From NCBI GenBank assembly GCA_021826315.1, contig JAKAZZ010000009.1:1-64000 (forward strand): DNA of 64,000 bases, given 5' to 3'. The position numbers and the translations under genes were made by a program. Of this stretch, positions 7,516 to 60,123 are shown piece by piece. Position 1 is the stretch's first letter. Every line of letters begins with the position of its first letter. Below the pieces are notes generated by a model. That model did not search any database, was not told the origin of the DNA, and saw only the letters and a program-made list of their open reading frames with translations. Source of the DNA: Actinomycetes bacterium (GTDB taxonomy: Bacteria; Actinomycetota; Acidimicrobiia; Acidimicrobiales; Acidimicrobiaceae).

Positions 7516-8982
7516 TCACGCCTCTCCAAATCCGTAGATCGCTGCGCCATTTATCTCGGCCGAATAGTCCTTGAGGTAAGGTCCATTCATGGTGACGCCG
7601 AGCCAACCTCCAGGTCCAGGCCCTGAATCGCCTTCTACTGTTGTCAAGGCTCCATCTGGCCAGACTTGGATGACGATTCCGGCATGAACAGAAGTATTTG
7701 TATTCTGCGGTCCCGTACCATAGAAGACAACGTCTCCCGCGGCTGGCTGGTCCTGCTCTGGAAGTACTACGTAGTTGTTGGCTATCTGAGTGTAGAGATC
7801 GCCTGTAAATCCGTCACTTGATGCCGATACCCCTGCTTGATTCCATGTCCATGCCGCAAAGAGGGCGCACCACTCTTCGCATGGACCATAGGGATTGCAA
7901 AAGTTTGGTTGAGTGGCTGGTCCGATCTGACTTTGGGCGGCGTTGATGATCGATTGGGAGTATTGGGTTGTACGCTCGTTTTGATTTATCGTTGGGACTA
8001 CTGAGATTGAATCTGGTGAAAGTAGCTGATATCCGAGCCCATCGTTCGATGGGATAATGGCTGAGATAGGAGTGTTAGGTAACTCTCCTCCAACCGATCC
8101 GTAGAATGGTGCATCACCAAAAGTGAATACTCCGCCATCGGTTCCAACTATCCAGTATCCTCTGTGGTCTGGCGTAGATGCCATGCCAGCTATGGACGCA
8201 TTGAGGTTTACGTCCCCAAGTGACCCATAGAACTGGGCATCACCGAAGGAGAAGATGCCCCCATCTGCCCCTACGAGCCAGTAGCCACCACCATCGGCTG
8301 TAGTTGCCATCCCTACGATCGCTGCATTCAGGTGCTGCCCACCCATGGAGCCGTAGAAGATTGCATCGCCAAAGGTAAAGATCCCACCATCGGAGGCCAG
8401 GAGATAGTATCCCTTACCGTCAGCGGTCGCAGTAATCGAGACAACTGGATTATTGAGCTTCACTCCCCCCATAGATCCGTAGAAGGTTGCGTCTCCAAAG
8501 GCAAAGACTCCGCCGTCTGCGGCAACGAAGTAGTAACCCTTTTGATCAGGAGTGAGTGTCATCCCGACGATGGGAGCATAAAGACCGATAGAGTATGCGT
8601 CTCCATAGTTGGTCGCACTCCCATATGTCATTAGTTGGCCTTGAGCTGTGACGAAGTAGTATCCTCCGCTCTTAGTTGGAACAGCGGCGACGATGATGGA
8701 GTGAGGTACCTGAGATGAAGGGATATTGATCGACGGTGCGTCTCCAAATCCAGTTAGAAGTGCGTGGCTGTAGACGACTTTCTGGGTCGAGATCGTGAAG
8801 CGATGTGTTGAGTTGAAATCCACATTTGTCAGCTGCACAACTGTCAACGCGACAGAGACTATCCCCAAAATAATTTTGAGTCTCCCTTTTGGGCGTGATT
8901 GAACTACAACGCGACCGAGTGCGTACCGCCTCCAACTGCTTTTTTCCGCAATCACTCTTCCACACCCATTCTCATTTTGCAC
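7516..8982 (-). CDS. Exported FGDA-repeat protein with C-terminal CHAP/NlpC-like hydrolase domain
   Basis: Predicted wall-associated enzyme of 488 residues. A basic N-terminus and one hydrophobic segment (KIILGIVSVALTVVQL, about 36-51) act as signal or anchor. Residues about 95-320 hold five to six repeats of 42 residues built on GY(Y/W)xxxxDGG(V/I)FxFGDAxFYGS, probably a propeller-like fold. The C-terminal part (about 335-488) has EEWCALFAAWTW, HAGIVIQVW and a later acidic/Asn-rich VEGDSG, the Cys-His arrangement of CHAP or NlpC/P60 amidases that cut peptidoglycan. The start is GTG 8982; no good ATG is in frame before the membrane segment. A related repeat array occurs in the protein at 45.5-48.6 kb. 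Substrate is not known. Confidence 0.8.
   Translation of the reverse strand: MQNENGCGRVIAEKSSWRRYALGRVVVQSRPKGRLKIILGIVSVALTVVQLTNVDFNSTHRFTISTQKVVYSHALLTGFGDAPSINIPSSQVPHSIIVAAVPTKSGGYYFVTAQGQLMTYGSATNYGDAYSIGLYAPIVGMTLTPDQKGYYFVAADGGVFAFGDATFYGSMGGVKLNNPVVSITATADGKGYYLLASDGGIFTFGDAIFYGSMGGQHLNAAIVGMATTADGGGYWLVGADGGIFSFGDAQFYGSLGDVNLNASIAGMASTPDHRGYWIVGTDGGVFTFGDAPFYGSVGGELPNTPISAIIPSNDGLGYQLLSPDSISVVPTINQNERTTQYSQSIINAAQSQIGPATQPNFCNPYGPCEEWCALFAAWTWNQAGVSASSDGFTGDLYTQIANNYVVLPEQDQPAAGDVVFYGTGPQNTNTSVHAGIVIQVWPDGALTTVEGDSGPGPGGWLGVTMNGPYLKDYSAEINGAAIYGFGEA
8040..8700 (-). repeat. 126-bp coding repeats (FGDA motif)
   Basis: Tandem imperfect repeats of 42 codons inside the CHAP-like gene. 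Each unit encodes a GYW/GYY start, a DGGVF core and FGDA..FYGS. The spacing between successive GY(Y/W) positions is 42 residues where I counted it. Confidence 0.75.
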
Positions 8983-34998: not shown

Positions 34999-35772
34999 CT
35001 AAAGGGTTGGCCATGCAACCGGGGCGTGAATTACGGTTGCGTAAAAGTTGTCAAAGCGCGCCACCAAAGAGTCGCTGAATGCCCCTAGGATGGCAGCCCC
35101 CTCCTCTTGGTTGGATCCGGCAGGATCTCCAATTACTCCATTGTCGGAGACTGCTTTTACTCCGTAGTTAATCATGTGGGGTACGATCTGTTCAAGGTCC
35201 TTCATCCCGCCAGACTCTGCTCTCTCTAGGTGTACCATATCTGGGGCGAGTGCCATCATCGCTGAAGTTTCGGTACGTCCAGCGTGAAGGTCGGGGTGCT
35301 CTAATCCACGCGCTTGGTCAGGTCCGGTCCACCTAAGCGCAGCTTCTCGAAGCACCTCTTGCGTGGGCCACCACGCGTTTACTCGCTGTTTCTCACCTCT
35401 GAGAATCTCGATTGCCTTAGCAATAGCGATGACATTACCACCATGTGCCGTAATAAAAAGGGTCCCCGCAAAGCGGGATGCAGTTCTGCCTAGTTCTACG
35501 ACCATCGCAGTCAAGACTTCGTTTCCAATCGAGAGAGTCCCTGGAAAGTGGAGGTGTTCGTGTGAGGCACCCACAGTTATGGGAGGAGCCAAAATTGACC
35601 TATCGGGGCGACGCTGAGCTAGGACTTCGGCGAGTGCGTTTGTGATGATTGAGTCGGTGAGGACAGGGAGGTGGGGGCCATGTTGTTCGGTCGATCCGAT
35701 GGGGATAATGAGAACCGAAGACTTCTCCACAGCCTCTACTTCGGGGTAAGTCATCGACGTCAAAAGGCGCAT
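34999..35772 (-). CDS. mftE: Mycofactocin precursor peptidase MftE (creatininase family)
   Basis: A creatininase-fold metallopeptidase of 257 residues. MftE releases the crosslinked C-terminal Val-Tyr unit from the MftC-modified MftA peptide. Metal ligands are visible in LIIPIGSTEQHGPHLP (Glu, His), the next Asp in LTDSI, the His in FITAHGGNVIAIA and the Glu in HAGRTETSAMM, matching MftE proteins. The GASHEHLHFPGTLSIG segment is also typical. Start ATG 35772 lies three bases after the ETF beta-like stop, indicating one operon. Its partner genes mftA, mftB and mftC lie 22-24 kb away at 58.2-60.1 kb, which is unusual since mftE generally sits beside them. Confidence 0.9.
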   Translation of the reverse strand: MRLLTSMTYPEVEAVEKSSVLIIPIGSTEQHGPHLPVLTDSIITNALAEVLAQRRPDRSILAPPITVGASHEHLHFPGTLSIGNEVLTAMVVELGRTASRFAGTLFITAHGGNVIAIAKAIEILRGEKQRVNAWWPTQEVLREAALRWTGPDQARGLEHPDLHAGRTETSAMMALAPDMVHLERAESGGMKDLEQIVPHMINYGVKAVSDNGVIGDPAGSNQEEGAAILGAFSDSLVARFDNFYATVIHAPVAWPTL

Positions 35773-35775
35773 GAT

Positions 35776-36570
35776 CTACCTCCTCACCTCATTTAGCTTC
35801 TCCAAAATAAGGCTAGCACCATCTTTGGGGTCGATAGCAGTTGCGATCTTTGATCTCTTTGGAGGACCTTCCATCAATTGGTCTCTGCGCAAAGATGCTT
35901 TGGCGGCCTCTGGTGCACTACGAATTGATGGTTTTACAAACCTTTCGGCTCGTCCGACTTCAAGAGGTTCTCGATGGGTGGCGTTGTTTTGTGCATTCAA
36001 GGCGGTTACCTCTAACGCTCTCGCAGCGATCTCGGAAGATACCTTCGGCCTTTGTTCTCTAGCGGTGGGGACCATTGCAGCAACAATGGGCCTTTCGCTT
36101 ACGAAAGTGATTTCAGAGGAAGGAAGCGATTGTGAGATACGAATTTGACTTTCATCGATCGAAAGATTTGAAACGTTTGCAATGTACTCGTACTCTAGAA
36201 GTGAGCTTGCGACAGGGGAAGGGTCTATGACATTGATCCCTTGCGGATACTGAGGAACTAGAACGATTTGCGCTGCCACATGATTGATTGCTGTGACTAA
36301 TTCGGCAACTCCCCAAGGCAAGTTAGATTCGCCTTTATTTTCCGTAGCGACAAAGATTGCCTCAGAGAGGCCAAAGGCCCGACAGTAAGCTATAAGTTCG
36401 CGATCGACCTCATCGGCGATAAGAATAACTGTTGCACTTTGACCCCTCTGCCCTTTGGCGATCTCGGCACCTAGCAGGAGGCAGTGAAGTTCACTCGGCA
36501 ACAAACGGGAAAGTTCGCTTTTGGATTTCCCACTCTCTCGCCTTCGAAAGAGCACGGCTGCTAGGTTCAT
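35776..36570 (-). CDS. Mycofactocin-associated electron transfer flavoprotein beta-like subunit
   Basis: A 264-residue protein of the ETF beta/FixA fold. Visible features are LHCLLLGAEIAKG near the N-terminus, a hydrophobic strand ATVILIADEVDRELIAYCRAFG, and a middle segment IVLVPQYPQGINVIDPSPVASSLL that corresponds to the conserved ETF beta stretch; FVSERPIVAAMVPTA follows. The C-terminal 70 residues are basic and less conserved. ETF accepts electrons from flavin dehydrogenases and passes them to a quinone reductase. It is the first gene of an operon with mftE and an SDR. The matching alpha-like subunit is encoded 15 kb away beside the FixC-like gene. Confidence 0.72.
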   Translation of the reverse strand: MNLAAVLFRRRESGKSKSELSRLLPSELHCLLLGAEIAKGQRGQSATVILIADEVDRELIAYCRAFGLSEAIFVATENKGESNLPWGVAELVTAINHVAAQIVLVPQYPQGINVIDPSPVASSLLEYEYIANVSNLSIDESQIRISQSLPSSEITFVSERPIVAAMVPTAREQRPKVSSEIAARALEVTALNAQNNATHREPLEVGRAERFVKPSIRSAPEAAKASLRRDQLMEGPPKRSKIATAIDPKDGASLILEKLNEVRR

Positions 36571-45518: not shown

Positions 45519-48500
45519 TTATGGAATTATCGTTCCACTTCCTGAGGGGCCGCCGTAGTACTTGGCGTCTCCGTATGCGTAGACTCCTCCATTTTGAGCG
45601 ATCAACCAGTATCCCAATCCATCATTCGTGACGGAGATTCCAGAGATTGGGCTTACGTAGTCGCTGCTCGCTAGAGAGCCGTAGCTTGTCGCATCGCCGT
45701 AGGCGAATACCTGTCCCGTGGCACTTACCAACCAGTAGCCTTTGCCGTCCAATGTCGACGCTAGTGCGACGATGGGCGATGCTACCTTGGTTGCACCAAG
45801 CGAGCCGTAGAAGCTAGCGTCTCCGAAGGAGAAGACACCCCCATCGGCTGCTACTAGCCAGTAGCCGTTTCCGTCCGGCGTAGATTCAATTCCTACTACT
45901 TGTCCATTGAGCTTAGTGTTAGCCATGGAGCCGTAGAAGGTAGCGTCTCCGAAGGAGAAGACACCTCCATCTGTTGCGACTAGCCAGTAACCTTTGCCAT
46001 CTAACGATGGGACAAGACCTTCAACTGGACCATTTAGCTTAGTGTTAGCCATAGATCCATAGAAGTTTGAACCACCGAAGGCAAAGACACCGCCATCTGA
46101 TGCAACTTGCCAGTAGCCGTTACCCTGATAGTTGGCTTCGAGACCCACGATCGGTTGGTTGAGTTTGAGTTTCATAGATGCAGTCGATCCGTAGCTCGTT
46201 GCATCGCCGAAGCCGCTTACCTGACCCGATGATGTCGTGGTCCAATAACCTTTACCGGTCGCAGTACCCGCAATGCCATGGGAGGTATTAGGGGGTCCGT
46301 TTACTGTAAGGGTGTAGGTGTATACCGCGGTACCGCCACTAGGGCTAGCCGCAGTTACCTCGAAAGTGTACTTTCCGGGGGTAGTTGGATTGCCAGTAAC
46401 CTGTCCGTTAGCGCTGTCGAGGGTGAGTCCCGTTGGAAGTGACCCAGTCGTTATTGAATAGGTAGTCCCAGCAGGAGCATTCTGAACAGCTACGCTTCCC
46501 GAGTAGTTCTGTGCACTTGTTCCAGTTGTTACACTTCCCTTAGGAGTGTTTGGCGCTCCCGTAACGGTAAGTGTCAGCGTCTCAGTATTGCTATTATTGG
46601 CGCTATCAGTAACCGTCGAGACGATCGTATATACCCCTGGAGTAGTGGGAATTCCACTTATTACTCCAGTTAGGGGGTCTATAAGAAGTCCACTCGGAAG
46701 GCCTGTCGCTCTCCACGATAGGGCTCCGACTCCACCAACGACTGATCCGGGCGTAAAGGTATAAGCTGATCCAGCTGGTGTGGTTTCGCTTATAGCCGAT
46801 GATGATCCGGTAATTGAAATCGGCGGCGTGTATACATACGGTACGGTCGAACCCGAATACTGACCTTGCTCTTCTGCAACGACTTGAAGAGTTCCTTGCG
46901 CTAGTGCAGGCATGTACAGCGTCAAATCTTGACCTGAGAGGCTAAAACAGCTACTTGGAGTACCTGAGCCTGAGGGGCAAAGGTTCAAGGATGTTGCAGT
47001 TCCACCAGAGATTTGACTTGCCGTTCCGATCTTCACCGTTGTAGCTAAGTTCAAGTTTGTACCTGAAAGAGTCACGACGTTACCACCTGCGATAGGCCCT
47101 GATGTGGGCGATACAGCTGTGGTTGTGGGGAGCGGCGGTGGCGTTGCCGTTTGGGTTGAGGTCGACGTATACGACGGATTCGCGTCCGATGATGAAGCTA
47201 CCGTAACGTTATTTGCCTGCAAAGAAGATGCAGGCAATCCCGACGTATTCGTACCATTGATATATAAAGGAGGCAAAGTTGAACCTGGTGCAAGCGGTGA
47301 AGTTGGAGTATAGGTACAGTTGACCTGCTGACCTACGGGCGAAAGACATACCCAACCATTGCCACCGCCATTAATCGGAGTGACTCCAGTTGGAAGAGTG
47401 TCTGTAACCGTGACCGGCTGACTTTCAGATGCTCCTGATGAACCCACAGAGACATTGTCGGTGTAAGTAACGGGAGATCCAGAGGTCGTAGTCGGTGCAT
47501 ACTCTTGCTGCGAAACTTGCAGTACGGGTACAGGGTTGAGCGATACGACGTTCACACTGTTGACTTCGTGAATCTCAGTCGATCCGCCGGTGCTCGCAAC
47601 CCAACCGAAGATGAGCTGCTTTGGTACACCATTAGATCCAACCCAAGATGAAGGGACATATGAGTCAGATGGCAATGTGCCACCTAGAACCGTTTGGCTC
47701 CCACCTATTGGGGTAAAGACTACCGCGAAGTCGCCAGGAGTAACAGTTGTGCTACTCCTGGGCGATGTGAACGACGATGAAGTGGTGTTGATAATTACTT
47801 CAACGGGTACTGTAACGCCACTCCTGGATGTCGCTGAAGCATTGTGAAGGGCTAAAGGCGAGGATGAAGTTGACGTGGCAGTCGAGTAAAGGGGGCAATA
47901 TCCTGTTGTACTTGTGCCGGGGCCACGCACAACAACCTGCCCTGGAACCGTACTGCTGGCGCTGATCCACGCCGGAGCAGTTCCGCATCCAGATCCATTA
48001 TACGATCCGTTGGAGTAATTTCCATACACGTCGAATCCGATTCCGAGATAACCGTTCACGAGTCCATTTGATGCTGAACTGGATGAATAACCAAGAGAAC
48101 CCCCAGATTGTCCCATCGCAGATGGGGGTTGAGGACTCGTTGGGTCAGCAGCCGCTAGGACAAAGGCGATACCATCTGCACCCGTTCCGTTGTATTGGTA
48201 GGTGTTGAAGTTGATATCGAGCCCTTGGGTACTCGGAACTGAGACGGTTGAAAATACCCCACCCTCCTGAGTGCCTGATGCAGGTGTGAGCTGCAAGGCA
48301 CCGCTACCGTTAGAGTCGCTGGTTCCGCTGCAACTTGGAATGTTCGCAGTAGATCCCTGTACTGTCAAGCATGCCGCGTTAGCTAAACTGCCGGATGGCA
48401 ACATAGGAATGAATAACGACCCTCCGGTCGAGGATAGAGAATTATCGGTGAACGTTTGAGAGAATAGAGTTGTACCAGAAGATGTGGCCGAGGTAACGGT

Positions 48501-48626
48501 TGAGGTTGCAAATGTGACAACTCCAACTGATGCGGTCATGAGAGAGACCGCAAGCGCGCTCCGTCTCATTACCCCTCTGCGACTGAATTCTGGTGTCACT
48601 CGATGCTTTCTAGATGAATATGCCAT
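45519..48626 (-). CDS. Large exported protein: L-type lectin, TIG/Ig-like domains and FGDA repeats
   Basis: A 1035-residue surface protein. Residues 1-50 are a long basic signal region (RRGVMRRSALAVSLMTASVG). About 55-360 resemble a legume-type (L-type) lectin: ALQLTPASG, GADGIAFVLAAAD, GIGFDVYGNYSNG, FAVVFTPIGG and LIFGWVASTGGSTEIHEV. About 365-480 look like a DUF11-type repeat (TVTDTLPTGVTPINGG). An IPT/TIG domain follows (AVSPTSGPIAGGNVVTLSGTN), then two putative Ig folds of the He-PIG kind (WRATGLPSGLLIDPLTGVIS, then SLPTGLTLDSANGQVTG). The C-terminal 240 residues carry six FGDA repeats of 42 residues. Ser/Thr content is high. A sugar-binding adhesin or matrix protein is likely; no enzyme motif is seen. 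Confidence 0.8.
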   Translation of the reverse strand: MAYSSRKHRVTPEFSRRGVMRRSALAVSLMTASVGVVTFATSTVTSATSSGTTLFSQTFTDNSLSSTGGSLFIPMLPSGSLANAACLTVQGSTANIPSCSGTSDSNGSGALQLTPASGTQEGGVFSTVSVPSTQGLDINFNTYQYNGTGADGIAFVLAAADPTSPQPPSAMGQSGGSLGYSSSSASNGLVNGYLGIGFDVYGNYSNGSYNGSGCGTAPAWISASSTVPGQVVVRGPGTSTTGYCPLYSTATSTSSSPLALHNASATSRSGVTVPVEVIINTTSSSFTSPRSSTTVTPGDFAVVFTPIGGSQTVLGGTLPSDSYVPSSWVGSNGVPKQLIFGWVASTGGSTEIHEVNSVNVVSLNPVPVLQVSQQEYAPTTTSGSPVTYTDNVSVGSSGASESQPVTVTDTLPTGVTPINGGGNGWVCLSPVGQQVNCTYTPTSPLAPGSTLPPLYINGTNTSGLPASSLQANNVTVASSSDANPSYTSTSTQTATPPPLPTTTAVSPTSGPIAGGNVVTLSGTNLNLATTVKIGTASQISGGTATSLNLCPSGSGTPSSCFSLSGQDLTLYMPALAQGTLQVVAEEQGQYSGSTVPYVYTPPISITGSSSAISETTPAGSAYTFTPGSVVGGVGALSWRATGLPSGLLIDPLTGVISGIPTTPGVYTIVSTVTDSANNSNTETLTLTVTGAPNTPKGSVTTGTSAQNYSGSVAVQNAPAGTTYSITTGSLPTGLTLDSANGQVTGNPTTPGKYTFEVTAASPSGGTAVYTYTLTVNGPPNTSHGIAGTATGKGYWTTTSSGQVSGFGDATSYGSTASMKLKLNQPIVGLEANYQGNGYWQVASDGGVFAFGGSNFYGSMANTKLNGPVEGLVPSLDGKGYWLVATDGGVFSFGDATFYGSMANTKLNGQVVGIESTPDGNGYWLVAADGGVFSFGDASFYGSLGATKVASPIVALASTLDGKGYWLVSATGQVFAYGDATSYGSLASSDYVSPISGISVTNDGLGYWLIAQNGGVYAYGDAKYYGGPSGSGTIIP
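45540..46260 (-). repeat. Six 126-bp coding repeats (FGDA motif)
   Basis: Six imperfect units in the C-terminus of the lectin-type protein, each GYW followed by DGGVFxFGDA or a weakened form (SGQVSGFGDA, TGQVFAYGDA, NGGVYAYGDA at the ends). Inner units are better conserved than outer ones. Same unit length as in the CHAP-like protein. Confidence 0.75.
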
Positions 48627-49910: not shown

Positions 49911-51269
49911 CTATCTAAAGAGGCGAAAGCCCCGGAGTAGCTCTTTTGCCAGCTCGCCGCGGCCGACGCGAGACTCCTTCATCGAAAGCTTGAAGGCCTT
50001 GGAAAACCCCATCTTTGCCTCGGGGTCGGTAACTGTAAAGACCTTATCAGCGAATGAATTGGCAAGCCTTGGTAGCTTTTGCTGTGCGAATTGTGATGAT
50101 GCGAATTCGAAGGCGCCAGCAAGGCGCCGATGGTTATCTCCAATGAACGACGATTCAACGCGCTTCTTCAGGCTTTTGAGAATCTCAAAGTCGCCCTTGA
50201 TCACCGAATCGGCTACCAGATTGGCAATTTCAATTCCAGAGGCGATGGCGTAATTTACGCCTTCGAGGTAGATACCAGCCGCTAGGAGGGTCGAGGCGGC
50301 ATCGCCTGCGAAAAGTACTCTTCCGATAGGGGCACCTGGAAAGTTGTGGTATCCACCTTCATTTAGGAGGTGCGCTCCATATTCAAGCCGCTTTCCACCT
50401 TTGATTAGAGGTGCAATGGAAGGGTGGTCTTTGAATTTTTCGAGCAGATCTTCGGGGCGTTGCGCCTTAGCGGCGAGGTCATCGATGTCAACTACTAGTC
50501 CGATCGAGATGGATGTTCGGTTGGTATAAAGGAAGCCGCCTCCCTTTACGTCTTGGGTGGCGCCGAGTACTTCGATGTCGACACCTCTTCCATTATCTAG
50601 TCCGAAGCGCTCATCGATAGTAGCTTCGTCGATGGCGATCGTCTCTTTTACTCCCAGCGAAAAGGCCGGGGCGACCCCCTTGTTTCCACTTATTTTTTCA
50701 AGTAGGCGCGGATTCGACCCCTCGGCCACGATCACCGACCTAGCAGAAAGAACTTCAGTGGAACCATCGCCGATCGAAACCATAACTTTTGCATTTGAAC
50801 TTCGATCGCCTGGCATGACATCTGTTACTAGGGCCTCTAATACTAAAGTTGCGCCACGACCTTTGGCGATCTCAGCTAAGAAGCCGTCGAACTCTCGACG
50901 GTGAGATGTTATCGCGTTCGGTAGATCCTCTACCCAACGAGGGTTGTCTACCGAGATCGTGATCGCACGATCCCCGCTTAGCACCATGGTGTTTCTTCGG
51001 ACGATCTTTCTTTCAAAGGGTATTGTGGCAATTTCGTCATCGGTTAGTAGCGTGCGCAAGATTGATAGGTAGATAACACCCCCGTAGAGGTTCTTGGCAC
51101 CGACGTAGCTTCCGCGTTCGAGTATGAGAACCCTAAGTCCTCGCTTGGCTGCTGTTATCGCGGCTGCGGAACCGGCGGGGCCACAGCCAACTACGATTAG
51201 GTCAAATACCTCGGTTTCGTCAACTGTATCGTCCTTAATCGCTTGAGGGTCGACGATTCTATCGGTCAT
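49911..51269 (-). CDS. FixC-like electron transfer flavoprotein:quinone oxidoreductase
   Basis: An FAD-dependent membrane-associated oxidoreductase of 452 residues. The N-terminal dinucleotide fold is FDLIVVGCGPAGSAAAITAAKRG (about 22-44), followed by GAKNLYGGVIY, the FixC/ETF-QO motif, and later GRVLFAGDAASTLLAAGIYLEGVNYAI (about 325-350), the second FAD contact. There is no C-terminal 4Fe-4S domain; it is supplied by the separate FixX-like protein next door. Its start overlaps the end of the ETF alpha-like gene by 11 bases. With ETF and FixX it should carry electrons from flavoenzymes to menaquinone. Confidence 0.88.
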   Translation of the reverse strand: MTDRIVDPQAIKDDTVDETEVFDLIVVGCGPAGSAAAITAAKRGLRVLILERGSYVGAKNLYGGVIYLSILRTLLTDDEIATIPFERKIVRRNTMVLSGDRAITISVDNPRWVEDLPNAITSHRREFDGFLAEIAKGRGATLVLEALVTDVMPGDRSSNAKVMVSIGDGSTEVLSARSVIVAEGSNPRLLEKISGNKGVAPAFSLGVKETIAIDEATIDERFGLDNGRGVDIEVLGATQDVKGGGFLYTNRTSISIGLVVDIDDLAAKAQRPEDLLEKFKDHPSIAPLIKGGKRLEYGAHLLNEGGYHNFPGAPIGRVLFAGDAASTLLAAGIYLEGVNYAIASGIEIANLVADSVIKGDFEILKSLKKRVESSFIGDNHRRLAGAFEFASSQFAQQKLPRLANSFADKVFTVTDPEAKMGFSKAFKLSMKESRVGRGELAKELLRGFRLFR

Positions 51270-52449
51270 GTTCTTCCATTACTAACTCGTAGAGTCGTTC
51301 AACGACCTCTCTGGCATCTGTTATGTAGGCATTGTCGACGAAGGAGTTTATTGGTGCGCCTTTGTCTACGTTGAATGAAAACCCCTCTTCAACTGCCTCG
51401 AGACCGCCGAGGTGTTGGGGCTGACCCGATACTCCAAGGGCGATGTAGAGCTTCGGTGAGATTGTTATACCAGTTGTGCCGATTTGACGCGAGTGGTCCA
51501 ACAGGCCAGCGTCACATATAACTCGCGTTGCGCCCAGTGCAACACCAAGCCGATCTGATATTGCCTTTACCTTAGCGATCATCTCTTCGTCCTTGAGGCC
51601 ACCGCCAACTACAAGGACCGCCTCTGAATTTGTGAGTGAAGTTTCATTGGCCGTAGCCAAGTTAACTCTGTAATCAATGAATGAATCTGCATCTGCCATG
51701 ATGTCTTTTGTGCCATCTTTGGGGGTACCGACGTCAAGATAGACCTCATTCGCGGTCTCGGCAGAACCTACATCGACCGATGGGCTTCGGCCATCGAACC
51801 TTAGTTTTGGTTCTGAATCAGGAGTGCTATCGATTACGGGATTTGCTGTGGCGGATGCTATCGGTGTTATTACGTAGCCACAAGTTCTTGGGCGTTCGTA
51901 ATAGGTGGCGCCGTTATCGCTATTTGTAGTTGCGATTCGATCTGAATAGACGGAAGCAACCGAACCGACGAAGGAAAGCGATGAGAGTGTGGCTAAGCGG
52001 GCACTTATTCCAATCGCCCTGTGATCCCCCATTACGAATATCGAATCAACGTTTATGGGAGTTTTTAACGCTAACGAAGCCTCCTTGAAGGAGCTCTTGA
52101 ACGAAGACTGGTGGTAGGGCGCGACGGGGGAGGTCAACGAGCAATCGGGCTTTGCCTCTTCGTTATTTTCATCGGTTTCTTCATCAAGTAGTCGAATCAA
52201 CGATGAATAAATTGAGTTAGCTACGAAGCTTGGATAGAGGTTGGGAGGCGCTAGAACCGAGATCAGATTGCCTAATTCTGCTCGTCCTCGACAATTCGGA
52301 CAGATGCTTGGCACATCGTTATCTACCCCACTATCGCTTGCACTGCTCTGAACCACGATTGCGATCGAATCTGGTCCAAGTTGACGACAGATAAGCGGAT
52401 CGTGGCCACCCCAAAGCAAGACCATTACTGAATGACTAGTTGATCTCAT
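51259..52449 (-). CDS. Mycofactocin-associated electron transfer flavoprotein alpha-like subunit
   Basis: A 396-residue ETF alpha-like protein. The C-terminal FAD domain is well kept: EAVLVVGGGLKDEEMIAKV (about 280), LGATRVICDAGLLDHSRQIG, then PKLYIALGVSGQPQHLGGLE, which holds the usual adenine and flavin contacts. The N-terminal half is divergent, with a CPNCRG pair near residue 50 and a long Ser/Asp-rich linker (about 195-260). The first ATG is used; a later ATG eight residues on is possible. The presumed beta partner is 15 kb away next to mftE. It overlaps fixC and follows the two FadH/OYE-type genes. Confidence 0.75.
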   Translation of the reverse strand: MRSTSHSVMVLLWGGHDPLICRQLGPDSIAIVVQSSASDSGVDNDVPSICPNCRGRAELGNLISVLAPPNLYPSFVANSIYSSLIRLLDEETDENNEEAKPDCSLTSPVAPYHQSSFKSSFKEASLALKTPINVDSIFVMGDHRAIGISARLATLSSLSFVGSVASVYSDRIATTNSDNGATYYERPRTCGYVITPIASATANPVIDSTPDSEPKLRFDGRSPSVDVGSAETANEVYLDVGTPKDGTKDIMADADSFIDYRVNLATANETSLTNSEAVLVVGGGLKDEEMIAKVKAISDRLGVALGATRVICDAGLLDHSRQIGTTGITISPKLYIALGVSGQPQHLGGLEAVEEGFSFNVDKGAPINSFVDNAYITDAREVVERLYELVMEEHDR

Positions 52450-52594: not shown

Positions 52595-54643
52595 CTATCG
52601 CTCTTTCCATAATCTTTTCTCCACCTCCCGGACAACGTCGCTTCCTTCAATGATCGCTGCGTGCGCACGCCTAGGTGAGAGGCTATCGCCAATTCGCAGC
52701 GAGGCGATTGAGAGCGCTTCTGCGACGTCGCTAAGGTGGCACTCCGGAAGGCGGGCTGTACTTAAGATGAGGTAGTCGGCGGTGATCTGGCTTTGGGCGC
52801 CGGTTATATGGTTGACGGTAGAAATCGTCTTACCTTCGATACCGGTGATGATTGTGTTTTTTACGATTTCAGCACCGCCTTTGGCCATCTTGATCCTCCA
52901 CCACTCAAGATCTAGTGTGAGTGATATTCCGCTTGCCGGTGATAGCGCTGGAGTAACGTAAGTAACCTTCGCTCCTCTCTCGAGGGCGAAGAGGGCGTTA
53001 GAAGTTGCGTCATGAAAGCCAACTTCATCGAAGACTACGACCCTATCTCCCTCATTGACGAATTTAAGGCCCATAAACCCTTCGTATGAGTCGAAGATCC
53101 GAAGTTCATCTGTGGAAGGGGCTATTTGAGCGAACGGATCGCTGTAGTTCGTGACAAAGTACGGTTTTTTCTTCTGTGACCCGGTCGCAACTACCAAAAT
53201 GTCGGGAGAAAGCTCCTCCAGCAAGGCGCGATCAACCGTTGTCCCGAGGTTGTAAGAGATGTTGACCTCGGATAGCTCTCGGGTTAGGTTTCTAATAAGG
53301 TCATAGAACTCTGCCCTAGATGGCCCCTTGGCTGCCGTGGTGACTGCTCCTCCGAGTTCGTCACTAGCTTCGAATGGAGCCACAAGATAGCCTTGGCTGG
53401 CTAAAGCTATCGTTGCTGCTAGGCCGGCAGGTCCACCACCTGCAATTGCAACCTTACCTTTGGTATTGGTTCGTCGGTCGAACTTCTTCAGGGATCTGAT
53501 TTGATTGCTCGATCCTCTTTCAATCAGAAATTCGCGACCGGCGCTTCGGTTTTCAATGCACCCAAGCCACCTATTTACCCCCATTCGTCCAACGCACTCT
53601 TGATTGCAGGAGAGGCAGGTTCGTATAGAGTCACTGTTCTCTAGATAGAGGGCTTTACGCGCGAAGTCGGGGTCTGCAATCTGTCCTCTAACTACTCCAA
53701 TAAGATCGCAGTCTCCATTTGCTAGGGCTTTTTCGCACTGCAGTGGATCTTTGAATCTCCCCACGCCAACAACTGGGATGCTCACACGTTGGCGAATCGC
53801 ATTTGGTATGAAGAGACTATAGGAGGGTGGTACAGCCATCGATGCCTCGATGGCATAGAGGCTGTAGGTGGCAACTCCGATCGAGGTGTTGATGTAGTCA
53901 ACCATCTTGGTATCTTCAACGATCGAGGCAACCTCGACGGTCTCATCGATGGTAATCCCGCCCTCGATGAGTTCATCACCGCAGAGTCGAACGCCTAGGG
54001 CCAACTCCGGCCCAATAGCGCCTCTAACTCCCTCGATTATTCTTATTAAGAGATGGCATCGAGCCTCGAGAGAACCACCATAGCTATCGCTCCTATGGTT
54101 CGTAGCACTCGATAGAAATGCTCTCACGATGGAGCTGTGTGAGCATTGTAGCTCTACGCCATCGAATCCTCCTGCAGCTACATTGGTCGCTACCTTTATG
54201 TAACCTTCGATGATTTCATCGATCTCGGCCTCGTCAACTTCGTGGGCTACCTCTTTGAAGAGGGGGTCGATAGTCGGCGATGGCCCCCAAACCTCTCGAC
54301 CGCTGTACCTTCCTGACCCTTGCCCTCCGTTGTGATTTATTTGAGCAAAGATCTTGCAGTTAAATTCATGAACTGCATCCGTGATCTTTCGGTATCCCTC
54401 GATAACCTCGTTACGAAAACCAGCGATCAACTTCTCATAAGGCCAGTCTGTTGGATGTGTCGAGTGCTCTTCAGTGATGATGAGACCGGCGCCTCCTCGA
54501 GCACGAGCCCGATAGTAGGCGACGTGGCGATCGGATGGCATCTGCTCTTCTGCGTAATTTGTCAAGTGCGCAGCAAAGACGATGCGGTTTTTGACTTCCA
54601 CTTCTCCTAATTTGATGGATGAACCAAGGAGCGGATACTTCAT
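52595..54643 (-). CDS. FadH/OYE-type flavoenzyme, mycofactocin-associated (type 2 of the pair)
   Basis: A 682-residue flavoprotein with the 2,4-dienoyl-CoA reductase layout. Residues 1-340 are an old-yellow-enzyme FMN barrel (VEVKNRIVFAAHLTNYAEEQ at the start, KIFAQINHNGGQGSGRYSG, GFDGVELQCSHSSIVRAFLS). Cysteines in CLSCNQECVGRMGVNRWLGC (about 345-364) can bind a 4Fe-4S cluster. Residues about 390-680 bind FAD and NAD(P) (GKVAIAGGGPAGLAATIALA). The start overlaps the stop of the upstream paralogue by four bases. Pairs of such enzymes are a known feature of mycofactocin neighbourhoods; their substrate is unknown. One of two adjacent paralogues. Confidence 0.85.
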   Translation of the reverse strand: MKYPLLGSSIKLGEVEVKNRIVFAAHLTNYAEEQMPSDRHVAYYRARARGGAGLIITEEHSTHPTDWPYEKLIAGFRNEVIEGYRKITDAVHEFNCKIFAQINHNGGQGSGRYSGREVWGPSPTIDPLFKEVAHEVDEAEIDEIIEGYIKVATNVAAGGFDGVELQCSHSSIVRAFLSSATNHRSDSYGGSLEARCHLLIRIIEGVRGAIGPELALGVRLCGDELIEGGITIDETVEVASIVEDTKMVDYINTSIGVATYSLYAIEASMAVPPSYSLFIPNAIRQRVSIPVVGVGRFKDPLQCEKALANGDCDLIGVVRGQIADPDFARKALYLENSDSIRTCLSCNQECVGRMGVNRWLGCIENRSAGREFLIERGSSNQIRSLKKFDRRTNTKGKVAIAGGGPAGLAATIALASQGYLVAPFEASDELGGAVTTAAKGPSRAEFYDLIRNLTRELSEVNISYNLGTTVDRALLEELSPDILVVATGSQKKKPYFVTNYSDPFAQIAPSTDELRIFDSYEGFMGLKFVNEGDRVVVFDEVGFHDATSNALFALERGAKVTYVTPALSPASGISLTLDLEWWRIKMAKGGAEIVKNTIITGIEGKTISTVNHITGAQSQITADYLILSTARLPECHLSDVAEALSIASLRIGDSLSPRRAHAAIIEGSDVVREVEKRLWKER

Positions 54644-56733
54644 CTCTGTGCCCCTACCAACTTAATTTCTTTGCTTGGACCATTCGCTTCGACGATGCGG
54701 CTTCCCTCTGCTAATGCACTTCTAATAGAGCGCGGCGCTAAGCAATCTCCTATTAATAGACCGCGGCCTCCACGAAATATTTGATCGTTAGCGAAGTATC
54801 GGTTTGATTCGATGAAGTAGTCAAAGTCGATGACCCTTTGGTGTTGACTGTAGATCTCTTCAACAACACAGGATCTCTCCTCAACGGCGGTAACTCTTGC
54901 CTCAAATAAAAGTTCGGCACCACTTCTAATCAGTGTGGTATTTCCTTCCACTAAGCCATTTGATAGGGAAAGCTGGCTAAAGGCAACTGGATCGGGGCAT
55001 ATGTATGTAAATTGAGCGCCAAGTGCGATCAGTCGTTTGACTACCGCGCGCGAAGCCTCGTCCCCGACGATGTCATAGAAGATAAAGTTAGATCCTTCAT
55101 CGATGAGCTGCTTGATAGATGATCCAAAGACGTGCATTGAATCGAGTTGTCCCTTAGCTGTTCCTCGGCTCGCACCAATGTCTACGATAGGTGGGCCCGA
55201 TCGGGGGCGGTAATTCGAGCCGGTCGCAATTACAACGTCGTCAAAGCTATCGACTTCACTGTAGCTGTCTACCCTCGCCGAGAGTTCTACCTCTATCTCA
55301 GCCAAAGCCACCTCTGTCACGAGGTCTTCTAAGAGATCCGTAAGGCGGTAGTTTGGGTGAGTCGAGCAGTAGCGACGTAGTTGTCCACCTAGATGGGGAC
55401 CTTCTTCAAAGAGGGTTACTCGATGTCGATTACGAGCCAGGGATAGTGCCGCGACCATCCCAGCTACTCCGCCTCCAACGACGGCGATCTTTGGTCCATC
55501 TGCGGCGAAAGGTCGCGATGACGCGGTAGGTATTCTTTCTTTGAAGCGCTTTGGCGCCTCAATATCGGGCGAGATAGAGGCATTGACTGCGCAGGAGATC
55601 GGAAAATTTCGCTGGTCTCCCACCATGCACCCTTGGTTGCACGCAATACACCTCCGTGGTCTATAAATTGCATCTAGAAAGTGGGGATCTGCGATAATAG
55701 GCCGGGTGAGATCTATCAAATCCACGTCTCGATCGGTTGCGAAGAGCTTCGCGAGGTCGGCGTCGGTGTAGATGCCACCGGAGTCGACAAGGAGTGGGCG
55801 GTCGTCGCCAAGACTCTCAGCTACTCGAGTGGCAAAGGTATCCATTGCGCCTGAGTTATAGAGAGATCCTGCGCTGTAGTCCGCCTCTGTATCTGCGGTT
55901 GAGTAGATAGAGCCCCGCTCGCAAAGTACATAGGAGACAGTACCCGGTAGTTCCTGCTCTAGGGCGATGAGATCCATGGCAGCTTGCTCTGGACCGAATC
56001 CTCCCCATGGTGCAAGTTCATCTATGGATTGACGAAGGCCGACGATACCACCCGCTGTTGACTTTGAAATCTCTCGTATCAGACTTCTTAGTAAGAGGCC
56101 TCTATCGTCTCCGTATCGATCGCTGCGCTGGTTTGTAAGAGGGGAGAGGAATGAGCGTATGAGCGAGTGTTGTCCTGCAGCTATCTCAATCCCATCAAAG
56201 CCAACTTCAAGTGCAAATTGTGCTGCCGTAGCGTAGTGCTTGATCAAATCTTCAATCTCGCTGATTGACATCTCGGCACAGATTTCACCGGATGTTACGT
56301 CGAGGTATGGAGATGGACCAGGGAGCGCACTCTGCGAAAGGGCGCTCGAGCCCTGTGGCCCACGATGGACGAGCGAGAGTAAAAACTTTGTGGCGCGAAA
56401 TTCGCCCTTTAGGCGCGGTAGTTCCCTTTTGATAGAAGGTATCGCATCGGTTAGCAGGGGCTGATATTCGTATGAGAATTCATCGAGTGAGATTGCCGCA
56501 CCTTCGAAGACGAAGATCGCAACTCTTTTGCTAGCGAGAACCTTACGACAGAAGTCAAAGTACGCCTTGGAGTAGTTGTCTCTGCGGTTCATGTTGGTCA
56601 CAATGGGGCCAAAGTAAGATCGATTTGCAAGACTCAACCGTTGCGATGAGATCTCGACCATCACTTTTTCGACCGCCCGGCTTTTGTCTTCCATTTGACC
56701 TTTCATATCCTTTGTTTCAAGTTCAATGTGCAA
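54640..56733 (-). CDS. FadH/OYE-type flavoenzyme, mycofactocin-associated (type 1 of the pair)
   Basis: A 697-residue paralogue of the next gene. The FMN barrel (about 25-355) has FLLSLVHRGPQGSSALSQSA, GFDGIEIAAGQHSLIRSFLS and LTNQRSDRYG. The cluster motif is CIACNQGCMVGDQRNFPISC (about 367-386), and the FAD/NAD(P) part starts at PKIAVVGGGVAGMVAALSLA (about 426). The barrel is more divergent than in the second copy, and the C-terminal NAD(P)-binding half has lost similarity in places. ATG 56733 is used; ATGs about 9-13 residues later are equally possible. It leads the operon flavoenzyme-flavoenzyme-etfA-fixC-fixX. Confidence 0.82.
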   Translation of the reverse strand: MHIELETKDMKGQMEDKSRAVEKVMVEISSQRLSLANRSYFGPIVTNMNRRDNYSKAYFDFCRKVLASKRVAIFVFEGAAISLDEFSYEYQPLLTDAIPSIKRELPRLKGEFRATKFLLSLVHRGPQGSSALSQSALPGPSPYLDVTSGEICAEMSISEIEDLIKHYATAAQFALEVGFDGIEIAAGQHSLIRSFLSPLTNQRSDRYGDDRGLLLRSLIREISKSTAGGIVGLRQSIDELAPWGGFGPEQAAMDLIALEQELPGTVSYVLCERGSIYSTADTEADYSAGSLYNSGAMDTFATRVAESLGDDRPLLVDSGGIYTDADLAKLFATDRDVDLIDLTRPIIADPHFLDAIYRPRRCIACNQGCMVGDQRNFPISCAVNASISPDIEAPKRFKERIPTASSRPFAADGPKIAVVGGGVAGMVAALSLARNRHRVTLFEEGPHLGGQLRRYCSTHPNYRLTDLLEDLVTEVALAEIEVELSARVDSYSEVDSFDDVVIATGSNYRPRSGPPIVDIGASRGTAKGQLDSMHVFGSSIKQLIDEGSNFIFYDIVGDEASRAVVKRLIALGAQFTYICPDPVAFSQLSLSNGLVEGNTTLIRSGAELLFEARVTAVEERSCVVEEIYSQHQRVIDFDYFIESNRYFANDQIFRGGRGLLIGDCLAPRSIRSALAEGSRIVEANGPSKEIKLVGAQR

Positions 56734-58174: not shown

Positions 58175-59278
58175 TCAACTCTTTAGGGTGAGTTCGCGCC
58201 TCCGCGGACTTCTATTGATCGAAATCAAAGTCGCCTCGGATCTTAAATTAACTGAGTTGGCTCCGTGGCCCTTAGCGCAATCGGGATCTGGGTCGTCGAG
58301 CGAGAGGCCGGTGAAGTATTTGGTTGCCATGCACCCGCCGTTGCAAGACGCAAAGGCACTGCAACTTGTGCAAGAGGTCGGCCCTTCACTCTCACGAAAA
58401 GATTGGAATAGAGGCGACTCTTGCCATATGGTTTCGAAGTCTTGACCCCTGATGTTTCCCGCCTTGAAGTTCTCGTCGATCGTAAACGGGCAGGCATATA
58501 CGTCACCGACCGGGTCGATGAGGCAGACCACGCGACCTGCGCCGCAGATATTCAATCCGTCTAGTGGCTCTCCTAGTGGTGAGAGGTGAAAGAATGAGTC
58601 GCCGGTTAGGACGTCACTTCTCCCCGAAAGCCATTCGTATAGGCCAAGTTGCTGACTTTGAGTTGGATTTAGGTAGCTATAGGAGTCGATACCTCGCCCG
58701 GAGGGGCGAAGACGGGTGATTCGAAGTTGAGCCCCATACTCATTTGCGATCGCATCTAGTTCATCGAGGTGTTCAACTGACTCCCTAGTTGCCACTACCG
58801 AGATCTTGGGTGTGGCAAAGCCAGCCTCTTTTAGGTTTGAAAGGGCAGTGATAGCCATGTCAAAGGCGCCGTCGCCCCTTATTGCGTCGTTTGAAGCTCG
58901 GTCGTAGCCGTCAATCGAGATCTGTACGTCGAGATAGTCCATAGATGCGATGCGGCGAGCAGCCTCTTTATCGATTCTGGATCCGTTGGTTGAAAATTTC
59001 ACTCCGACACGATTTGACGTAGCGTATTCGATGATTTCAAAGAAGTCTCGACGGATCATTGGCTCACCGCCGCCGATGTTGACGTAAAAGATCGACATTT
59101 CTCGGAAGCGATCGATCAGCGCCTTGCACTCTTCGGTTGTAAGTTCGTCAGGGCGTCGCCTTCCCGAACTCGAGAGACAGTGAACGCACGCTAGGTTGCA
59201 CCCATAGGTGATCTCCCAGGTCAAGCAGATGGGCGAAGCTAACCCTTTGCGCATCTGCTCTCTAAGCTCACCATTCAT
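58175..59278 (-). CDS. mftC: Mycofactocin radical SAM maturase MftC
   Basis: Radical SAM/SPASM enzyme of 367 residues that oxidatively decarboxylates the C-terminal Tyr of MftA and forms the Val-Tyr crosslink. The radical SAM cysteines are at 27, 31 and 34 (CNLACVHC), followed by the SAM-binding GGGEPMIRRDFF. The SPASM domain near the C-terminus has CGAGRVVCLIDPVGDVYACPF, GNIRGQDFETIWQ, then CTSCSAFASCNGGCMA for the auxiliary clusters. Length and motifs match MftC. The ATG overlaps the mftB stop by one base (TAATG), so translation is coupled. The partner MftB provides the RiPP recognition element. Confidence 0.95.
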   Translation of the reverse strand: MNGELREQMRKGLASPICLTWEITYGCNLACVHCLSSSGRRRPDELTTEECKALIDRFREMSIFYVNIGGGEPMIRRDFFEIIEYATSNRVGVKFSTNGSRIDKEAARRIASMDYLDVQISIDGYDRASNDAIRGDGAFDMAITALSNLKEAGFATPKISVVATRESVEHLDELDAIANEYGAQLRITRLRPSGRGIDSYSYLNPTQSQQLGLYEWLSGRSDVLTGDSFFHLSPLGEPLDGLNICGAGRVVCLIDPVGDVYACPFTIDENFKAGNIRGQDFETIWQESPLFQSFRESEGPTSCTSCSAFASCNGGCMATKYFTGLSLDDPDPDCAKGHGANSVNLRSEATLISINRSPRRRELTLKS

Positions 59279-59571
59279 TAAATCTTCTCCTCGCTAGCCT
59301 CAAATACTAAAGGCACATCGTTGTCGTAGGTTAGGATTCCCTTTTCGATCAGTTGATCTAGAGCGGCTTGAATCGATTGCGGGGTAAAGTCATCGAGCGC
59401 TTGATCTTCCACGATCTCATCTTTACTCCATTGACCACTCGCGACTTTATCCATAAGCTTTACTGTTATCTTGGACTTTGCCAAGAGGAGCTGTCGAGTG
59501 TTGAAGTTGTAAAAGAGGCCGCCAAACTCCTCTTTGCGGTACGAAAACTCTTTGGAGATTGCGATATTCAT
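59278..59571 (-). CDS. mftB: Mycofactocin chaperone MftB
   Basis: A 97-residue RiPP recognition element protein (PqqD-like winged helix) that binds the MftA leader and presents it to MftC. It contains EFGGLFYNFNTRQLLLAKSK, the pattern of the beta-hairpin part of MftB, then a helical part and SIQAALDQLIEKGIL (the wing helix). Size and order (mftA-mftB-mftC) are standard. ATG 59571 has AAGGAG six bases upstream. It starts 423 bases after the mftA stop, a longer gap than usual. Confidence 0.93.
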   Translation of the reverse strand: MNIAISKEFSYRKEEFGGLFYNFNTRQLLLAKSKITVKLMDKVASGQWSKDEIVEDQALDDFTPQSIQAALDQLIEKGILTYDNDVPLVFEASEEKI

Positions 59572-59994: not shown

Positions 59995-60123
59995 CTAGTA
60001 GACGCCGCACATGGAATCTATCGAGATCTCTTCAAGGATCAAAACTTCGGTAACCTTTGCACCCTCAGCGTTTGGCTCAACTTCAGCCTCTTTGGTTGCG
60101 GCGTCAACTTTGTTCTCGTCCAT
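59995..60123 (-). CDS. mftA: Mycofactocin precursor peptide MftA, IDSMCGVY variant
   Basis: A 42-codon gene, short enough to be missed by length filters. It starts ATG (minus strand, 60123) with AAGGAG seven bases upstream. The leader is acidic (MDENKVDAATKEAEVEPN); the second half is KVTEVLILEEISIDSMCGVY and the stop is TAG. Known MftA peptides end in IDGMCGVY; here Gly is replaced by Ser (codon TCC) at residue 37, while Met-Cys-Gly-Val-Tyr is intact. Val41 and Tyr42 are the residues crosslinked by MftC and then released by MftE. mftB and mftC lie downstream on the same strand. Any effect of the change on MftC or MftE recognition is untested. Confidence 0.92.
   Translation of the reverse strand: MDENKVDAATKEAEVEPNAEGAKVTEVLILEEISIDSMCGVY

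Follow-up and report, generated by a model that had tools for sequence, protein, structure and literature searches.

A mycofactocin precursor peptide with serine at a nearly invariant glycine in one actinobacterial genus

In M. smegmatis, the cofactor mycofactocin originates from the small peptide MftA, whose core is the C-terminal Val-Tyr freed by MftE. MftC oxidatively decarboxylates and cyclises this dipeptide, MftE releases it as AHDP, MftD carries out a deamination and MftF a glycosylation (PMC7491314), and the cleavage by MftE takes place only after decarboxylation (PMC10885120). Seven of the last eight residues of MftA, including the Gly sixth from the end, were described as invariant (Haft 2011, PMC3023750), and the motif was given as IDGXCGVY (Haft 2017, PMC5264612), so that this Gly site has been taken as fixed. 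The MftA of Mycobacterium (TIGR03969/PF23709) is short, has a conserved CGVY end and is encoded next to mftB and mftC. In Saccharopolyspora, the clusters contain mftA, mftB and mftC together with an OYE-family enzyme (TIGR03997), and mftD is missing from the cluster (PMC11162802). The window analysed here, which is the whole stretch of 64,000 nucleotides, resembles both systems in these features, but its MftA has Ser at residue 37, where that of Mycobacterium has Gly and that of Saccharopolyspora keeps IDGMCGVY (PMC11162802). The invariance of this Gly has been reported from Actinobacteria to Archaea, and Ser37 departs from it in a tiny peptide for which mutational data are thin.

The peptide and its gene neighbourhood

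The minus-strand translation of mftA is MDENKVDAATKEAEVEPNAEGAKVTEVLILEEISIDSMCGVY, followed by a TAG stop, and an AAGGAG ribosome-binding site is located just 5' of the ATG. This translation confirmed the peptide described in the sequence-only reading, namely a 42-residue MftA ending in IDSMCGVY with Val-Tyr kept and a TCC-encoded Ser at residue 37, for which the strand had not been given. Membership in the MftA family is defined by the curated score, and the IDGxCGVY motif is descriptive only. The peptide scored 28.7 bits against TIGR03969 (E 8.7e-7; curated cut-off 25) and 31.5 bits against PF23709 (curated cut-off 27), above the cut-off in both cases, and it has the C-terminal Cys-Gly-Val-Tyr, but it deviates from the strict motif by the Ser at the Gly position. 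Judged by its scores, it is a variant of MftA and not a non-member, despite the motif mismatch. The gene lies directly upstream of mftB and mftC on the same strand, and the contig also carries mftE at a distance of 23 kb (Table 1). These scores and this context together identify the peptide as the mftA of an mft locus. Within the window's genome, a fragmented assembly of 110 contigs with 89.9% completeness, the pattern IDxMCGVY has a single match. Strict IDG-based motif searches would overlook real precursors of this kind.

Table 1 Features of the mftA locus and its surroundings in the window
Feature	Coordinates	Strand	Remarks
mftA	59995..60123	-	42-residue mycofactocin precursor ending in IDSMCGVY, stop codon included; TIGR03969 and PF23709
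mftA codon 37	60013..60015	-	TCC, encoding Ser where Gly is nearly invariant; gga on the plus strand
Val-Tyr codons of mftA	59998..60003	-	dipeptide that becomes the cofactor (role from PMC7491314)
mftB	59278..59571	-	peptide-binding chaperone; TIGR03967, 46.6 bits (cut-off 33)
mftC	58175..59278	-	radical SAM/SPASM maturase with Cys27/31/34 and an unusual Phe294; TIGR03962, 550 bits (cut-off 265)
FadH/OYE-family oxidoreductase, type 1-like	54640..56733	-	mycofactocin-associated; best match TIGR03996, 290.8 bits, below the cut-off of 627.9
FadH/OYE-family oxidoreductase, type 2-like	52595..54643	-	TIGR03997, 787 bits, just below the cut-off of 793
Mycofactocin-associated ETF alpha-like protein	51259..52449	-	best match NF038209, 119 bits, below the cut-off of 240
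FixC-like FAD oxidoreductase	49911..51269	-	NF007542, 207 bits
ETF-domain (ETF beta-like) protein	35776..36570	-	adjoins mftE; PF01012, 27.9 bits (cut-off 26.7)
mftE	34999..35772	-	creatininase-type peptidase releasing the modified Val-Tyr; TIGR03964, 222.8 bits (cut-off 172); syntenic in G399 and G402

The MftC of the window has its CX3CX2C cysteines at C27/C31/C34 and its SPASM cysteines at C303/C306/C312/C316/C334. From a PucR-type regulator to mftE, the gene order is common to the window and two further genomes of the genus, G399 and G402. The ETF alpha-like protein matches its family in the C-terminal third only, and its first 260 residues are divergent. A queuosine-salvage-type protein (PF10343; 36844-37851, minus strand) adjoins the mft genes, as it also does in G399, G402, G334 and G398. 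Two minus-strand genes (45519-48626 and 7516-8982) encode large, apparently secreted proteins made of GYWLVAxDGGVFSFGDAxFYGS-like repeats, one of which ends in a different C-terminal part.

Distribution and history of the serine

We surveyed residue 37 with the pattern [I/V][D/E]xMCGxY-stop, in which any codon was accepted at x. The class survey (395 genomes) gave 79 matches, with Gly in 78 and Ser only in the window; the family survey (42 genomes) gave 22 matches, with Ser in 4; and the phylum sample (396 genomes) gave 48 matches, with Ser again only in the window. When the overlaps among the three surveys were removed by hand, 124 loci in 121 sampled genomes showed Gly in 120 cases, Ser in 4 and no other residue. 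In addition, 84,980 species genomes were scanned for IDxMCGVY with a codon at x that does not begin with G, a scan blind to Ala, Val, Asp and Glu at x and to variants elsewhere in the motif, and the only 3 loci obtained all have Ser and belong to the window's genus (G396, G399 and G402). The earlier claim that Ser is rare and that other MftA peptides almost always have Gly was thus borne out, and the alternative that Ser is common at this site failed. On this evidence, the Ser37 form of MftA is genuine and rare, and within this known peptide family it is restricted to one clade. Among the papers searched, none combined mycofactocin with Acidimicrobi.

The C-terminal motif also varies naturally elsewhere in the same bacterial family. 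In the sister genus g4, the MftA encoded upstream of mftC ends in IDGICGVY in all six MftC-bearing genomes (L131-L136), and such peptides escape Met-based patterns. This variant differs from that of the window in that Met is changed to Ile at a position already known to vary, Gly is kept, and MftD is present, at scores over the cut-off.

The codons for Ser37 in the four metagenome-assembled genomes (MAGs) are TCC, TCC, TCA and TCG. The last 15 residues of MftA are identical in the window, G399 and G402, although synonymous sites in mftA are near saturation (pS 0.73-0.96), and mftC has a dN/dS of about 0.05 among these three genomes where dS is computable. By these measures, Ser37 is a selected, lineage-level trait of one genus and not a one-off. 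The fragmented state of the window's genome might suggest that codon 37 was sequenced or assembled wrongly, but there is practically no chance of such an error, because three more MAGs, each named separately, also encode Ser, through other synonymous codons, and TCN and GGN differ by two or more bases; the possibility, raised in the sequence-only reading, that the true residue is Gly failed on this point. Relaxed constraint, with Ser as a product of drift in a lineage where the pathway is decaying, might be read from the lack of MftD and MftF above the cut-off in the window's genome. We consider such decay very unlikely, since the C-terminal residues are identical and purifying selection is strong in the three genomes, MftB, MftC and MftE are intact, and MftD is equally missing from most of the Gly relatives within the genus.

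MftA was found in all 12 members of the genus, and 4 of the 12 have Ser. In the IleRS tree, G396 (Ser) is placed outside a group in which G214 (Gly) is sister to the Ser trio of the window, G399 and G402 (SH-aLRT 95 and 99). The MftE tree agrees with this order, but its support is lower. Unlike these two, the MftC tree pairs G396 with G214 (92/71), and a single Ser clade is rejected on it (AU p 0.0075). Convergence is not claimed here, because G396 has a long branch and the IleRS and MftE trees place it differently. Any of the trees would need at least two changes, Ser having been gained either twice or once with a later return to Gly in G214, and one gain is slightly favoured, because all four codons are TCN and lie two or more base changes away from GGN. 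Phe9 and Tyr11 of MftB, common to the four Ser genomes, were considered as Ser-specific residues and dropped; both are present in G214, which has Gly, and they are therefore markers of the clade and not of the trait. When Ser-specific residues were sought in MftE, only positions that vary in other members were obtained. The occurrence of Ser and Gly forms in closely related genomes, each with its own maturase, is useful in that peptide swaps would reveal the needs of MftB/MftC and MftE upstream of Val-Tyr.

Proposed maturation and position 294 of MftC

We propose that the gene functions as the mftA of an uncultured actinobacterial genus of the Acidimicrobiia type and that its Ser peptide is very probably processed as an ordinary MftA; every biochemical step, the acceptance of the Ser peptide included, is modelled on the M. 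smegmatis pathway. MftB and MftC would bind the Ser37 peptide, the C-terminal Val-Tyr would be decarboxylated and cyclised by MftC, MftE would cut after Gly40 and free the cyclised dipeptide (AHDP), and later enzymes would convert AHDP to a mycofactocin-type cofactor. Counted back from the MftE cut, Ser37 is residue four; it would therefore be discarded with the leader and be absent from the product, and the final cofactor is probably unchanged by it. The description of the variant as a non-canonical core, as given in the sequence-only reading, has to be corrected in this respect, since the core is Val-Tyr (PMC7491314) and Ser37 lies outside it.

A different product would be expected if Ser37 itself were modified or the cut site shifted, and Ser, unlike Gly, has a modifiable side chain. 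We regard this as very improbable, since Cys-Gly-Val-Tyr is unchanged, so that both the core and the residue at the cut site are of the usual kind, and no additional peptide-modifying enzyme was recognised among the genes annotated beside mftA. A further idea would refine the ordinary-MftA reading rather than replace it, namely that a change of Leu294 to Phe in MftC accommodates Ser37 in MftA, both sites having changed in concert on two branches within the genus, by two gains or by a single gain that was later reversed in G214. In an alignment of 128 MftC sequences, numbered as in the window, each of the four Ser genomes has Phe at position 294. Phe is found in none of the 119 others in which this column is occupied (113 have Leu, 5 Met and 1 Ile), and G214, which has Gly in MftA but branches within the Ser group on IleRS, is one of those with Leu. 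Whichever history is taken, MftA 37 and MftC 294 would have changed together on the same two branches, and in a matched null, 5 of 300 comparisons of a small clade with a long-branch leaf gave a unique shared residue at a conserved column. Such co-adaptation is possible but rather doubtful, as there are two independent events only, the association was found post hoc after looking through the protein, and a unique Tyr321 in MftC is common to the Ser trio and the unrelated G360, so that such coincidences do occur. Position 294 sits between the SPASM cysteine motifs, and the equivalent residue in PqqE appears to be Tyr, but nothing places residue 294 near the peptide; a single-sequence AlphaFold model of MftC (pLDDT 46) was too poor for use. 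The association of Ser37 with Phe294 is therefore a suggestive lead. If true, the two residues would form a co-evolved specificity pair, offering a natural means of studying how MftC recognises the peptide ahead of the residues that it modifies. It had been proposed earlier that this locus is a natural test of the tolerance of MftC and MftE; the rare natural variant is indeed there, but its cognate MftC is unusual, with Phe294 in every Ser genome, and hence what the locus probes may be the co-adaptation of enzyme and substrate and not how much a standard MftC tolerates.

MftD, MftF and the end product

No MftD (TIGR03966) above the cut-off was found in the window's genome at its given completeness (best 61.6 bits against 470.85) or in G396, G399 and G402, and no MftF (TIGR03965) over 280 bits was found in the whole family, the window's genome included. 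For this reason, the end product of the window's pathway could differ from the standard one, as far as gene content can indicate. In Saccharopolyspora, the clusters are without mftD, yet S. erythraea makes a methylated mycofactocin (PMC11162802). MftD is below the cut-off in most mycofactocin-encoding genomes of the family, including 11 of the 12 in the genus; these MftD-poor genomes keep MftA, MftC and usually MftE, and OYE-family enzymes are present in most of the clusters.

MftF-like genes scoring 148-154 bits adjoin the cluster in G399 and G402, and the window's contig, which ends at 64,827, stops before that point. Upstream of the cluster in G399, the divergent MftF-like genes are accompanied by an NDMA-dependent alcohol dehydrogenase (TIGR03989, 545 bits against a cut-off of 440), and homologues occupy the same place in G402. 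Elsewhere in the window's genome (G000), two contigs of 5 kb each, C45 and C47 (L233 and L234), carry pieces of an MftF-like glycosyltransferase that are 72% identical to each other and are possibly two divergent copies.
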